Source: Methanococcoides orientis (GTDB taxonomy: Archaea; Halobacteriota; Methanosarcinia; Methanosarcinales; Methanosarcinaceae). Taken from it: a stretch of DNA of 64,000 nucleotides. The position numbers and the translations under genes are program-made. Shown piece after piece: positions 57,886-63,733 of the stretch. Location: positions 2,242,685 to 2,306,684 of the forward strand of contig NZ_CP073710.1 of NCBI RefSeq assembly GCF_021184045.1, written 5' to 3'. Numbering within the stretch: the stretch's first letter is position 1; every line of letters begins with the position of its first letter. Below the pieces are notes generated by a model. It did not search any database. It was given only the letters and a program-made list of their open reading frames with translations, and was not told the origin of the DNA.

Positions 57886-57936
57886 ATGTGCATCTTTGCA
57901 CTTAATACTAAAATTGAATGTGGGGTGTGCCAATGA
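57886..57936 (+). CDS. Short leader ORF (16 aa) coupled to glycosyltransferase
   Basis: ATG 57886 follows GGGAGG (57871-57876). It encodes MCIFALNTKIECGVCQ and its stop TGA overlaps the glycosyltransferase start (ATGA). Three of 16 residues are Cys. A small hairpin GTGCA-TCTT-TGCAC lies over its first codons. It looks like a translationally coupling upstream ORF; no known leader-peptide family. Confidence 0.5.
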   Translation: MCIFALNTKIECGVCQ

Positions 57937-59474
57937 ATGTTGTGGCAGCCATTCCTGCATACAATGAAGAGGTTAACATCAAGCACCTCATTAAAAGAAC
58001 GAAGCTCTATGTGGATAAGATCATTCTTGTTGATGATGGGAGTAGCGATGCGACAGCCTATATTGCTAAGAACATGGGTGCACAGGTAATCAGGCATGGT
58101 GATAATCTTGGGAAGTCTGCGGCATTGGCAACAGCTTTTGAAGAAGCGAAAAAACTAAACCCCTCTGTGCTTGTGACTATCTATGCGAACGGCTTTCACA
58201 ATCCTGATGATATCCCTGCAATACTGAATCCTGTACTTTCCGAGGATGCGGATGTTGTGAATGGTGCTTATGTCACTTCATCGGGCATTGGCTTTGGCAC
58301 TGCTTCCGAGTATGCGAAGGCTACAGACAAGAACAAGTTTTTCATGAGCAGTGGCTTCCGTGCGTATTCTTCAAAAACACTCGATGTTTTCAAATTCACA
58401 AAGGGTGATGATGCTATTGAGGTGGAGTTAATAGATGATGCTGTCAAGTCCGGTTTTAAGGTGCGTGAGGTGCCTATCAAGATAATCGATCCGGTCAAGA
58501 GAGAGTTGTTGGCAAGCAAACGCATAGGTGTGGTAGTGCCTGCGTATAATGAAGAGAAGCTTATAAAAGCTACTGTTGATGGTATTCCCCAGTACGTTGA
58601 CCGGATCTATGTGATTGATGATGCGAGTATTGATAATACTGCAAAGGTCATTGAGACACTGAACGACCCAAGGTTGTTTGTGATAACGCACGAGATCAAT
58701 AAAGGTGTGGGTGCTGCAATTGTCAATGGCTACAAGCAGTCACTGAAAGAAGAGATGGATGTCGTTGCGGTAATGGCAGGGGATAACCAGATGAACCCTG
58801 CCCAGCTTCCAAAGCTGCTTATGCCCATAATCGAGGGTAGAGCTGATTATACTAAAGGCAACCGCCTGTTCAGTGAGGAGTACCGCGGGGGCATGAGCGG
58901 ATTGCGCCTGTTTGGCAACTCGATTTTAACTTTCATCACAAAGATCGGAAGTGGATACTGGAATATAATGGATCCTCAGAATGGCTATACTGCCATCTCA
59001 AGGGAAGCACTGGCGGAGATAGGTTTGGATGAGATCTATACGTATTACGGCTACTGCAACCATATTCTTGTGAGGTTGAATGCCTTTGGTTTCAGGACCC
59101 TTGATGTGGTCATGCCTGCCAGATACGGGAAAGAGAAGTCAACGATCAAGTACGGTCCGTACATCGGCAAGGTATCGTTCATGTTGTTCAAGAAGTTCCT
59201 CTGGAGATTGAAGATGAAGTACATGATACTCAACTTCCATCCGCTCGTCTTGTTCTACATCCTTTCAATGCTCCTCCTTCCTGTAGGTGTGCTTCTCGGT
59301 ATGGCAATACTCATAGCCTGGCTAATGCAGTGGTCAGTATCTTCGAATCTTCCAATACTTGATGCTTTTATACTTGTTTCAGGTACTCAGTTCCTGCTGT
59401 TCGCAATGCTTTTCGATATGCAGGAGTCGGATAAAGATATGAGAGGCGAGAACCGGTTATATGGCGATTATTGA
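57933..59474 (+). CDS. Tandem family-2 glycosyltransferase with membrane C-terminus
   Basis: 513 residues, start ATG 57933. Two GT2 domains: residues ~1-190 (VVAAIPAYNEE, VDDGSSDATA) and ~197-420 (GVVVPAYNEE, VIDDASIDNTAKV, MAGDNQMNP). The first lacks the central acidic DxD-like pair (TIYANGFHNPDDI), so it is probably not catalytic; the second keeps AGDNQ. The C-terminal ~90 residues have two membrane helices (HPLVLFYILSMLLLPVGVLLG and a second). Probably adds a sugar to a lipid carrier. First major gene of a surface-polysaccharide cluster. Confidence 0.88.
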   Translation: MNVVAAIPAYNEEVNIKHLIKRTKLYVDKIILVDDGSSDATAYIAKNMGAQVIRHGDNLGKSAALATAFEEAKKLNPSVLVTIYANGFHNPDDIPAILNPVLSEDADVVNGAYVTSSGIGFGTASEYAKATDKNKFFMSSGFRAYSSKTLDVFKFTKGDDAIEVELIDDAVKSGFKVREVPIKIIDPVKRELLASKRIGVVVPAYNEEKLIKATVDGIPQYVDRIYVIDDASIDNTAKVIETLNDPRLFVITHEINKGVGAAIVNGYKQSLKEEMDVVAVMAGDNQMNPAQLPKLLMPIIEGRADYTKGNRLFSEEYRGGMSGLRLFGNSILTFITKIGSGYWNIMDPQNGYTAISREALAEIGLDEIYTYYGYCNHILVRLNAFGFRTLDVVMPARYGKEKSTIKYGPYIGKVSFMLFKKFLWRLKMKYMILNFHPLVLFYILSMLLLPVGVLLGMAILIAWLMQWSVSSNLPILDAFILVSGTQFLLFAMLFDMQESDKDMRGENRLYGDY

Positions 59475-60086: not shown

Positions 60087-61772
60087 ATGCTGAGTATTGA
60101 TGACCGTGATTTTACGATCTATAAGTTTCGGCGCCTCTGTGAAGCAATAGCTACAACGTATCCAACGATCACAATGGCAGAATACCTGAATAATGAGCAT
60201 CCTTCCAGATTCGTACTGATGCGCCATGATGTTGACCGGATGCCAGGAAAAGCACTGGAAACCGCACAGATCGAGCATGAACTGGGCATCAAGGCAACAT
60301 ACTATTTCAGGTCGACCAAAAGCGTGTTCAAGCCTGAGATCATGAAGCAGATCCAGAATATGGGGCATGAGGTCGGTTACCACTATGAGACATTAAGTGA
60401 GGCAAATGGTGACCCGGAGAAGGGAATCGAACTATTCCAATCTCATCTAAATGATTTCAAGAAAATTGCCAATGTTAGAACTATTTGTATGCACGGTAGT
60501 CCTTTGTCAAAGTATGATAATCGTGATCTTTGGGATGTATATGACTTCGAAGATTTTGGAATTCTCGGAGAGGCATATTTATCCGCCGGAGAAGACCTTA
60601 ATTATTTTACTGACTCTGGAAGGACTTGGTGTTTCGGGAGTAGTATGAGAGACTATATTCCCGGAAAAACAGAACATCTTAGTGCTGATACAACTGATGA
60701 TCTTATTGAATTGATCGAGAAAAACGAATATAATAATTTCTATATTCTTGCACATCCAGAAAGATGGTCTTCGACTGTTGCCGGATGGGGTCTATATTAT
60801 TCAATGGACATTCTATTCAATCTTGGCAAGAAATTTTTGATGGGGGTAAGTGGTGTGAATAATTGTAAGGATGGGTTGGAAAATAGTAGTATCTCAATAA
60901 CAGTCGATATTGAAGACTGGTATCATATTCCATCCGTTTGTGGATCCGATTTCTCGGTTTACAAAGATGTAGACGAATTTTTTGAAAGATGGGGTAAAAG
61001 GTATGATTATTTAAGTGAGCCGACAAAAAAAATACTGGATATTCTTGATGAATTTAATGTAACAGCCACATTCTTTGTTGTTGCAGATGTTGAAGAACAT
61101 TATCCTGGTCTGATTGAATCTATTTCTAAAAGAGGTCATGAAATTGGGTGTCATGGAGCTCATCATTCATGCGGGATCAACTCTAAGACCAAAGAGCCGT
61201 TGATGACCATTAAGGAATTTGAGGCAGAGACCTTGGAGGCAAAGAAAAAACTTGAAAAAGCATCGGGAAAGGAGGTAATTGGTTATCGTGCACCAAATGC
61301 ACTAGTTACAGGAGAGATGCTTGATTCACTTGAAAAAATTGGATTTAAGTATGATTCGTCAGTCTCTGTAAATTCACTTTACAATAAAACAGATTCATCT
61401 TTGAAAGGAGTTTCATCAGTCCCTTATCATCCAGCCCATGGAAGTCTGGAGCCCGGGGGGGTCAGAAGCTTTATTGAGTTCCCATGGTCCTATTATGATA
61501 TCGGTGCAAAGATTCCTACCTCTGGTGGACCCATGCTAAGGTTTTTGGGTAGCCAGATTATCTTGAAAGGACTAAGACAGAGCTTGAATAGGGGACATAC
61601 AATATTCTATTTTCATCCCATCGACATTTCAAATGAAAAGTTTCCAGATGTGGGGAAAGGTAGGCCATTTTACTGGGCAGTAAAAGGAGGGATTGTTGAA
61701 AAAAGGATTCGGCATGTATTGAAGAATTTAGAACATGTTAACAAAGTTCCCCTTAAGGACATGGTGGGATAA
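60087..61772 (+). CDS. Two-domain polysaccharide deacetylase
   Basis: 561 residues. N-terminal ~265 residues form a deacetylase-like domain (VLMRHDVDRMP, GHEVGYHYET, CMHGSPLSKYDNRDLWDVY, ILAHPERW). From ~270 there is a NodB-homology domain (ITVDIEDWYHI, ATFFVVADVEEHYP, GHEIGCHGAHHS, GYRAPNALV), of the type found with exopolysaccharide and sortase-linked clusters. Both domains keep the HD-D type acidic/His motif. It trims acetyl groups from a surface glycan in related systems. Confidence 0.85.
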   Translation: MLSIDDRDFTIYKFRRLCEAIATTYPTITMAEYLNNEHPSRFVLMRHDVDRMPGKALETAQIEHELGIKATYYFRSTKSVFKPEIMKQIQNMGHEVGYHYETLSEANGDPEKGIELFQSHLNDFKKIANVRTICMHGSPLSKYDNRDLWDVYDFEDFGILGEAYLSAGEDLNYFTDSGRTWCFGSSMRDYIPGKTEHLSADTTDDLIELIEKNEYNNFYILAHPERWSSTVAGWGLYYSMDILFNLGKKFLMGVSGVNNCKDGLENSSISITVDIEDWYHIPSVCGSDFSVYKDVDEFFERWGKRYDYLSEPTKKILDILDEFNVTATFFVVADVEEHYPGLIESISKRGHEIGCHGAHHSCGINSKTKEPLMTIKEFEAETLEAKKKLEKASGKEVIGYRAPNALVTGEMLDSLEKIGFKYDSSVSVNSLYNKTDSSLKGVSSVPYHPAHGSLEPGGVRSFIEFPWSYYDIGAKIPTSGGPMLRFLGSQIILKGLRQSLNRGHTIFYFHPIDISNEKFPDVGKGRPFYWAVKGGIVEKRIRHVLKNLEHVNKVPLKDMVG

Positions 61773-61934: not shown

Positions 61935-62711
61935 ATGTTAAATTTTCATGATCTTGATTTTACACTTGACAAGTTCCATGAACTCTGTTCTGCAATAGCA
62001 GGTAACTATACCACCATTACTATGGAAAAATACCTATCCTCAGACTCTGTGCTACCTGAGCGTTTTGTCTTGATGCGTCATGATATAGATGAATGGCCCA
62101 AAACCGCACTGAAAACCGCACGTATAGAATAGGAACTTGGGATTCACGCAAGTTACTATTTCAGAACCCGTAACAACGTGTTTGATCCTGAGATCATACA
62201 AGAGCTTGAAAAGATGGGGCATGAGATTGGATACCATTATGAAGTTTTGAGCACTGCAAAAGGTAACTATGAAAAAGCCATCAAATTGTTCGAGGGTGAT
62301 GTGAATAGATTCAGAGAGATCTGTAACCTTAAAACAATTTGTATGCATGGAAAGCCTCTGTCAAAATATGATAATCGAGACCTATGGGATGTCTATGATT
62401 TCAAGGATTTTGGAATTCTTGGAGAGGCGTATTTGTCTGCCGGAGATGATCTCAATTATTTTAATGATACGGGACGGGGCTGGAACTCAAAGAACAACTT
62501 AAGAGATTTTATTCCTGGCAAAACAGAACAGTTTTTTGCTGATACAACCGATGATCTTATTGAATTGATCGAGAAGGGTAAGGTCAATACTTTTTATATT
62601 TCAACGCATCCGGACCGCTGGACTTCAAATATTTTTAGCTGGGCTTTGTTCTGGTTACAGGATCTTGCATCAAATTCGGGGAAGATGATTTTGAGGGTGG
62701 TGAGGAAATAA
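61935..62711 (+). CDS. Polysaccharide deacetylase-like protein with in-frame TAG (pyrrolysine candidate)
   Basis: 258 codons, paralogous to the first domain of the preceding gene (VLMRHDIDEWP, GHEIGYHYEV, CMHGKPLSKYDNRDLWDVYD). Only one codon interrupts it: TAG at 62130-62132, codon 66. Frame and homology continue without a shift on both sides (KTARIE - TAG - ELGIHASYYF), where the paralogue has His. In Methanosarcinaceae TAG can be read as pyrrolysine, and I see no gene in this window that uses TAG as stop. A one-codon nonsense mutation making a 65-residue fragment is the alternative. Confidence 0.75.
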
Positions 62712-62719
62712 TCGAAATT

Positions 62720-63733
62720 GTGACTAAGGTTGAAGAGAACGAGTGGAAATCGTTTTTGGATAAATATGGTGATTCGACAATCTATCATACTCCTGAATGG
62801 AGGCTGCTTTTACAAAGGACATTTAATTATAAGTCTAATTATATTTTTGCGAAAGACGATTGTGGGGAAATTGTTGGATTCTTACCTTTGTTTTACATTA
62901 ACAGCAAATTAACTGGAAATAGATTATGTTCTGTTCCCTTTTCTCATATATGTAGTCCCATAGGCAATAAGGAAGTATTCAATTGTTTAATAGATGAAAC
63001 TGTTAGTATCTTTGACAGTTCTGATGCTAAATTTATTGAAATTCGGGACCATGTTGACTCGAATAATTTTGTAAGCCAAAATTCATTCTCAACGTATATC
63101 TTAGATGTATCTAAAAATCGTGATGAGTTATGGGCGAACATGTCGAGATCTACTAGACATAATATTAATAAATCAAAAAAAAAGGGTACAAGTGTACGTG
63201 TCACAAGAAACTATGAAGATTTAAAACAATTCTATGAACTAAATTGCATAACAAAAAGAAAAATTGGAGTTCCCTGCCATCCATGGAAATTTTTTAAAAA
63301 TTTATTTGACATTTTCAAAGAAAATGTTTCTTTGTATGTTGTAGAATATGATGGGGAAATAATTGCGGGGGGTATTCGAGACTTTTATCACGATACTGTT
63401 TCCGCAAAATACGCTGCTTCAAATCCTAAATTTACTAAATTATATCCATATAATGCTTTAAATTGGAAGTGTATTGAAGATGCATCTAATAATGGATACA
63501 AGTATTACGATCTTGGAAGAGTTTCCTACGACAATAAAGGATTAATATTTTTTAAACAAAGATGGGGCGCCGTTGAAAAAAGAATATTCTATTCTTTTTA
63601 TCCAAAAAACCCTATGTCTTTGACTGAAAACAGAGACAATTTGAAATATAAAATCGGGACAAACGTGATTAAAAAGATTCCTATGCCAATTTATCAAAAA
63701 CTTAGCAATGAAGTATTTGGAAATTTTGGGTGA
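62720..63733 (+). CDS. FemAB/GNAT-like peptidyl- or glycan-transferase
   Basis: 337 residues. GTG start 62720, GAGG 15 nt upstream. Two GNAT-like halves; YHTPEWRLLL, GFLPLFY, FIEIRD and SRSTRHNINKSKKKG match the FemAB family associated with exopolysaccharide/XrtA clusters, and the end has YYDLGRVSYDNKGLIFFKQRWGA. Could aminoacylate a sugar or peptide. Markedly AT-rich, unlike genes before 60 kb. Confidence 0.78.
   Translation: MTKVEENEWKSFLDKYGDSTIYHTPEWRLLLQRTFNYKSNYIFAKDDCGEIVGFLPLFYINSKLTGNRLCSVPFSHICSPIGNKEVFNCLIDETVSIFDSSDAKFIEIRDHVDSNNFVSQNSFSTYILDVSKNRDELWANMSRSTRHNINKSKKKGTSVRVTRNYEDLKQFYELNCITKRKIGVPCHPWKFFKNLFDIFKENVSLYVVEYDGEIIAGGIRDFYHDTVSAKYAASNPKFTKLYPYNALNWKCIEDASNNGYKYYDLGRVSYDNKGLIFFKQRWGAVEKRIFYSFYPKNPMSLTENRDNLKYKIGTNVIKKIPMPIYQKLSNEVFGNFG

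Follow-up and report, generated by a model that had tools for sequence, protein, structure and literature searches.

Kivenson et al. are said to have described, in Science in 2025, "Pyl code" archaea in which TAG always means pyrrolysine (Pyl), the 22nd amino acid, with Pyl in many proteins and proteomic support. In Methanosarcina acetivorans, Pyl was seen at a private TAG of the tRNA-His guanylyltransferase Thg1 and ascribed to neutral evolution (Heinemann et al., 2009; PMC2933860), and an amber codon put into uidA was read as Pyl at 20–30% without a special signal (PMC2933860). For 'Ca. Methanomethylophilus alvus', 16 non-methyltransferase Pyl proteins have been predicted and terminal TAG is given as 1.6%, with about 4–5% in Methanosarcina (PMC4153887). 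Neutral gain of TAG has also been discussed, as well as in-frame UAG in a histidine-kinase cluster of three other archaea (PMC3639795).

Within the window (the whole 64,000-nucleotide stretch of Methanococcoides orientis DNA that we analyzed), we found that a CE4-like gene (divergent polysaccharide-deacetylase fold, called from the ORF, alignment and AlphaFold/Foldseek fold) is present at 61935..62711 (+) as 258 codons that begin with ATG and end with TAA. The only internal stop is a TAG at codon 66 (62130..62132, +), placed by the sequence and by orthologue alignment, and when this TAG is read through, the product aligns collinearly with its orthologues over the full length with no frameshift. 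The product is 61% identical (E 4.9e-107) to the N-terminal domain of the neighboring gene at 60087-61772, and the neighbor has His (CAT) at the column of codon 66. The alignments bear out the original prediction, which had described TAG 62130 as the sole break in a 258-codon ORF, free of frameshifts and other stops, that resembles the first domain of its neighbor and has a paralogous His opposite the TAG. We rejected the possibility that two separate genes lie here: the downstream piece, which would start at GTG 62178, does not contain the RHDxD motif and therefore cannot be a complete domain.

The neighbor (60087..61772, +) is a 561-aa paralogue in which, by Pfam/NCBIfam and alignment, a target-like N-terminal domain is fused to a Polysacc_deac_1/XrtA-type deacetylase domain; this C-terminal domain matches Pfam Polysacc_deac_1 (PF01522). 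By Pfam/NCBIfam, a FemAB-family gene of the XrtA/PEP-CTERM type (62720..63733, +) starts 9 bases past the stop codon of the target, and a two-domain GT2 glycosyltransferase gene (AglJ-like; 57918..59474, +) is found upstream of it. The glycosyltransferase, the fused deacetylase and FemAB as neighbors indicate a surface-glycan locus. The read-through protein itself matched no Pfam or NCBIfam family, Polysacc_deac_1 included. In an AlphaFold model made with 48 sequences (pLDDT 91, pTM 0.90), the best Foldseek matches in the PDB are CE4 enzymes (PdaC 6h8l/6h8n and chitin deacetylases; probability 1.00) whose Asp/His motifs occur in a similar order; however, TM-scores are only 0.4–0.5 and identity is 12–13%. 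Canonical CE4 enzymes carry the motifs TFDD and H-S/T-x-x-H, and these look altered in the target, with RHDxD for the first and HYExL for the second, so that "deacetylase" is a guess from the fold. The model places residue 66 near the end of helix 55–67, between the RHDxD motif (48–52) and strand 73–76, in agreement with the predicted position in a helix between an HD-D motif and the next strand. The helix is outside the conserved motifs, and residue 66 is variable although it adjoins the invariant Glu65; from this variability and the secondary structure, we infer that the residue may be exposed to solvent.

To see what relatives carry at codon 66, we searched for homologues in 112 genomes of the family, 66 of which gave a match. 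We found no internal stop in any other full-length homologue of the target in this search, and the other stops were confined to short, weak fragments. The original prediction had proposed asking whether the TAG is conserved; it is present at this column in no orthologue from the family search or from the closest loci of a scan of GTDB genomes, where sense codons are found throughout, and conservation is thereby ruled out. The nearest orthologue (L063, JAIOSM010000014.1; 79% amino acid and 84% nucleotide identity) has GAG (Glu), the next-nearest (L007 and L008) have AAG (Lys), and orthologues thus hold codons one base off TAG (GAG, AAG and CAG). Across relatives the column contains K, H, S, A, Q, R, N, E or Y. 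As judged from these alignments, the TAG is real in the assembly, derived, private to this genome and at a variable position. The contig with the nearest orthologue belongs to a MAG labelled Desulfobacteraceae and contains a methanogen-like glycan cluster; it is probably mis-binned archaeal DNA. Between this contig and the window, dS is 1.18 for the relative of the fused deacetylase and 0.52 for the target orthologue, and the higher value for the former suggests different histories within the cluster.

The variability of the column also bears on whether Pyl has a special role in the target, which the data do not support. The chemistry of Pyl in methyltransferases is unusual (PMC2933860), and residue 66 could be imagined as an adaptive reactive electrophile or modification site; however, the position, on a helix that none of the conserved motifs covers, tolerates nine other residues and the TAG is conserved in no relative, so that of all the explanations for codon 66 we give this one the least credence.

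The genome of M. orientis is a single contig of 2,494,162 bases with 99.99% completeness, and it contains the complete pylTSBCD set that the original prediction had asked for. In the pyl locus, ARAGORN found a tRNA-Pyl with a CTA anticodon (the CUA-decoding set), while an Rfam search of the same locus returned nothing useful; PylS, PylB, PylC and PylD all scored above curated cut-offs. Two mtmB genes, one mttB and mtbB each contain one in-frame TAG. With pylT (CUA), pylS, pylBCD and TAG-bearing methylamine methyltransferase genes, the genome is that of a pyrrolysine decoder. There is also one aRF1 above cut-off, and since its NIKS and YxCxxxF motifs are intact, termination at UAG probably still competes with Pyl-tRNA, a competition that has been proposed for these archaea (PMC9499178).

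To quantify how TAG is used, we sampled approximately 790 kb (32% of the genome), calling coding ORFs by codon usage. Only one of about 600 coding ORFs ends in TAG; because some short genes probably escape the ORF caller, the resulting figure of about 0.2% is approximate. Other TAG-ended calls in the sample are genes in which the TAG is plainly internal. When we applied the same procedure to 300 kb from each of two other genomes, about 3 of ~230 and 4 of ~168 ORFs ended in TAG (Fisher p 0.07 and 0.009 as compared to M. orientis). Since TAG rarely ends genes in M. orientis, read-through may exceed the level seen in M. acetivorans. The sole ORF with terminal TAG is pylB (L036:4129-5421, -), and its TAG is one base ahead of the pylC start codon (TAGGATG). 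This spacing invites a feedback model: at high levels, Pyl-tRNA would carry translation beyond pylB and interfere with initiation of pylC; terminal TAG in pylB is known from other species (PMC2933860).

Outside the methyltransferases, we found internal TAG in the sample in the target and in four other genes: an aspartase/fumarase-like lyase, a PAS/GAF histidine kinase, a secreted subtilase and a SagB-family dehydrogenase. In the lyase (G000:C1:321136-322488, -; L203:11133-12488; L221), genus comparison places the TAG at codon 210, and it is at the identical codon in seven of the nine genus genomes with the full gene, the other two having CAG and TGG. Downstream of the TAG, pairwise dN/dS is 0.05–0.09, with dS from 0.27 to ~1.6 between TAG-bearing genomes. 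In the histidine kinase (G000:C1:923931-925571, -; L208:13928-15571; L236), the TAG at codon 189 is common to three genomes in the genus comparison, two of them besides M. orientis at 78–79% identity, and dN/dS is ~0.10 at dS of ~1.0–1.4 between the genomes that share it; a paralogue in a further genome of the genus has Trp at this column. Selection is thus kept beyond the TAG in both genes, which argues that they are not translated merely up to the TAG. On these sequence comparisons, the lyase is a strong candidate for a conserved Pyl enzyme outside methylamine metabolism, making it a better test case and a more interesting lead than the target; in the literature searched, we found no paper that links pyrrolysine with aspartate ammonia-lyase.

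The remaining two TAGs are private, as in the target, with CAG in the nearest relatives. The subtilase, which has fn3-like repeats (G000:C1:1010003-1013404, -; L149 and L247), has its TAG at codon 565 by comparison with relatives. We rejected the idea that this TAG is common to the close relative G006 (91% identical), which has CAG at codon 565 and a TAG at another codon. The SagB-family dehydrogenase (G000:C1:925806-926468, -; L208:15803-16468; L258) was found on TAG read-through; its TAG is at codon 42, where relatives have CAG or CAA (Gln). An AglJ-like glycosyltransferase frame (L214:18439-19569, -) runs on past a TAG at codon 35, although its true start may follow the TAG.

In-frame TAGs that recur in the genus are to be expected in M. 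orientis as well, and this bears on whether the TAG of the target is a sequencing or assembly error in place of a true GAG or AAG. The nearest orthologues do have these codons, one base away, but recurrence of other in-frame TAGs at the same codon in several genus genomes and the single-contig, nearly complete assembly make such an error very improbable. Because TAGs occur at the same codon in the lyase and the histidine kinase across genus genomes with purifying selection downstream, TAG is very probably a working sense codon in the M. orientis lineage, and very probably means pyrrolysine. The pattern of shared and private TAGs is as expected of a rare sense codon that drifts in and out. We lean towards a Methanococcoides-type lineage in which TAG has in effect passed from a stop codon to a pyrrolysine codon, leaving two stop and 62 sense codons, with Pyl in perhaps 10–20 ordinary proteins per genome, as extrapolated from the sample, including a conserved lyase codon that persists through divergence of the genus and, as one private member, the deacetylase-like gene.

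To identify how selection acts on the target, we used codon-model branch tests. The dN/dS of the target branch is 0.40 as compared to 0.13 in the background (2dlnL 11.1) and is weakly below 1 (2dlnL 4.6), and it is about equal on both sides of codon 66 (0.43 before, 0.39 after). Short sister branches are also high (0.24–0.30), so the excess in the target over these is modest and part of it is a short-branch effect. The other 19 sequences have 76 invariant residues, of which the target retains 73, and losses of invariant residues in the other sequences range from 0 to 9 when each is left out in turn. We found no further lesion in the gene besides the TAG. In simulations with indels left out, the chance of no further stop is 0.67, 0.20 and 0.07 after 10, 40 and 70 neutral substitutions, respectively. 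With no other lesion and most invariant residues retained, an old pseudogene is made unlikely, and a long-dead gene appears unlikely from its sequence. A more recent loss is a different matter: the TAG could be a nonsense mutation, in which case the glycan gene would be dispensable, possibly laterally acquired and drifting, and any Pyl read-through incidental. The raised dN/dS before and after the TAG, the private TAG, a fused paralogue next door that could cover the function and the high chance that 10 neutral substitutions leave no other stop are all in keeping with such a null allele, but there is no second lesion, where 70 neutral substitutions would probably have left another stop, most invariant residues are retained and a TAG read as sense would not inactivate the gene. 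We therefore regard a recent null allele as unlikely. The original prediction had named two grounds for doubt. One, sense codons in all orthologues plus relaxed selection after codon 66, is half borne out: orthologues do have sense codons and dN/dS is raised to 0.40, but to a similar degree on either side of codon 66, and it stays weakly below 1. The other, a genome without pyl genes, is not what we found.

Taken together, these data suggest that the target is probably a live CE4-like surface-glycan gene that tolerates a one-step mutation to TAG, since this codon is decoded as pyrrolysine, and from which full-length protein is made. A single-base change from GAG or AAG at a variable helix position would have created codon 66, which Pyl-tRNA(CUA), charged by PylS, would read in competition with aRF1. 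The mRNA would be expressed and read through to a full-length, working product with Pyl at residue 66, and Pyl there is probably near-neutral for selection. The target thus stands as the candidate pyrrolysine protein first proposed, given the pyl genes, the sense-like behavior of TAG and a gene that is intact on either side.

The mid-gene TAG most likely means a working, slightly altered enzyme and not a broken gene, and standard annotation splits or discards genes of this kind. More broadly, the locus and its genome show stop codon capture, with terminal TAG nearly gone, existing codons of unrelated genes drifting to TAG and a few of these TAGs reaching fixation within a genus. The lyase TAG in seven genomes offers a direct and simple way to ask if the whole genus uses pyrrolysine outside methylamine metabolism, and if Pyl becomes obligatory when cells grow on non-methylamine substrates.

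In comparison with known systems, M. orientis resembles the reported "Pyl code" archaea in the loss of TAG as a terminator and in the probable presence of Pyl in many proteins. The target is most like Thg1: both are non-methyltransferase genes of Pyl-decoding methanogens with a single private TAG, homology on either side and a sense codon in relatives, and in Thg1 Pyl is dispensable for activity. However, the two belong to different protein families, and Pyl was physically observed in Thg1, whereas the target is known here from sequence. Like M. orientis, 'Ca. M. alvus' has few TAG stops and in-frame TAG genes whose homologues often do not have the TAG, but it belongs to a different archaeal order, terminal TAG appears rarer in the M. 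orientis sample (about 0.2% versus 1.6%) and M. orientis has two TAG sites common to several species. The original prediction held that a surface-glycan Pyl enzyme would be new, but Pyl proteins other than methyltransferases are not new in themselves: Thg1 is well established (PMC2933860), 'Ca. M. alvus' has 16 predicted ones (PMC4153887), and the target joins them as a further example of a kind of case that is already known.
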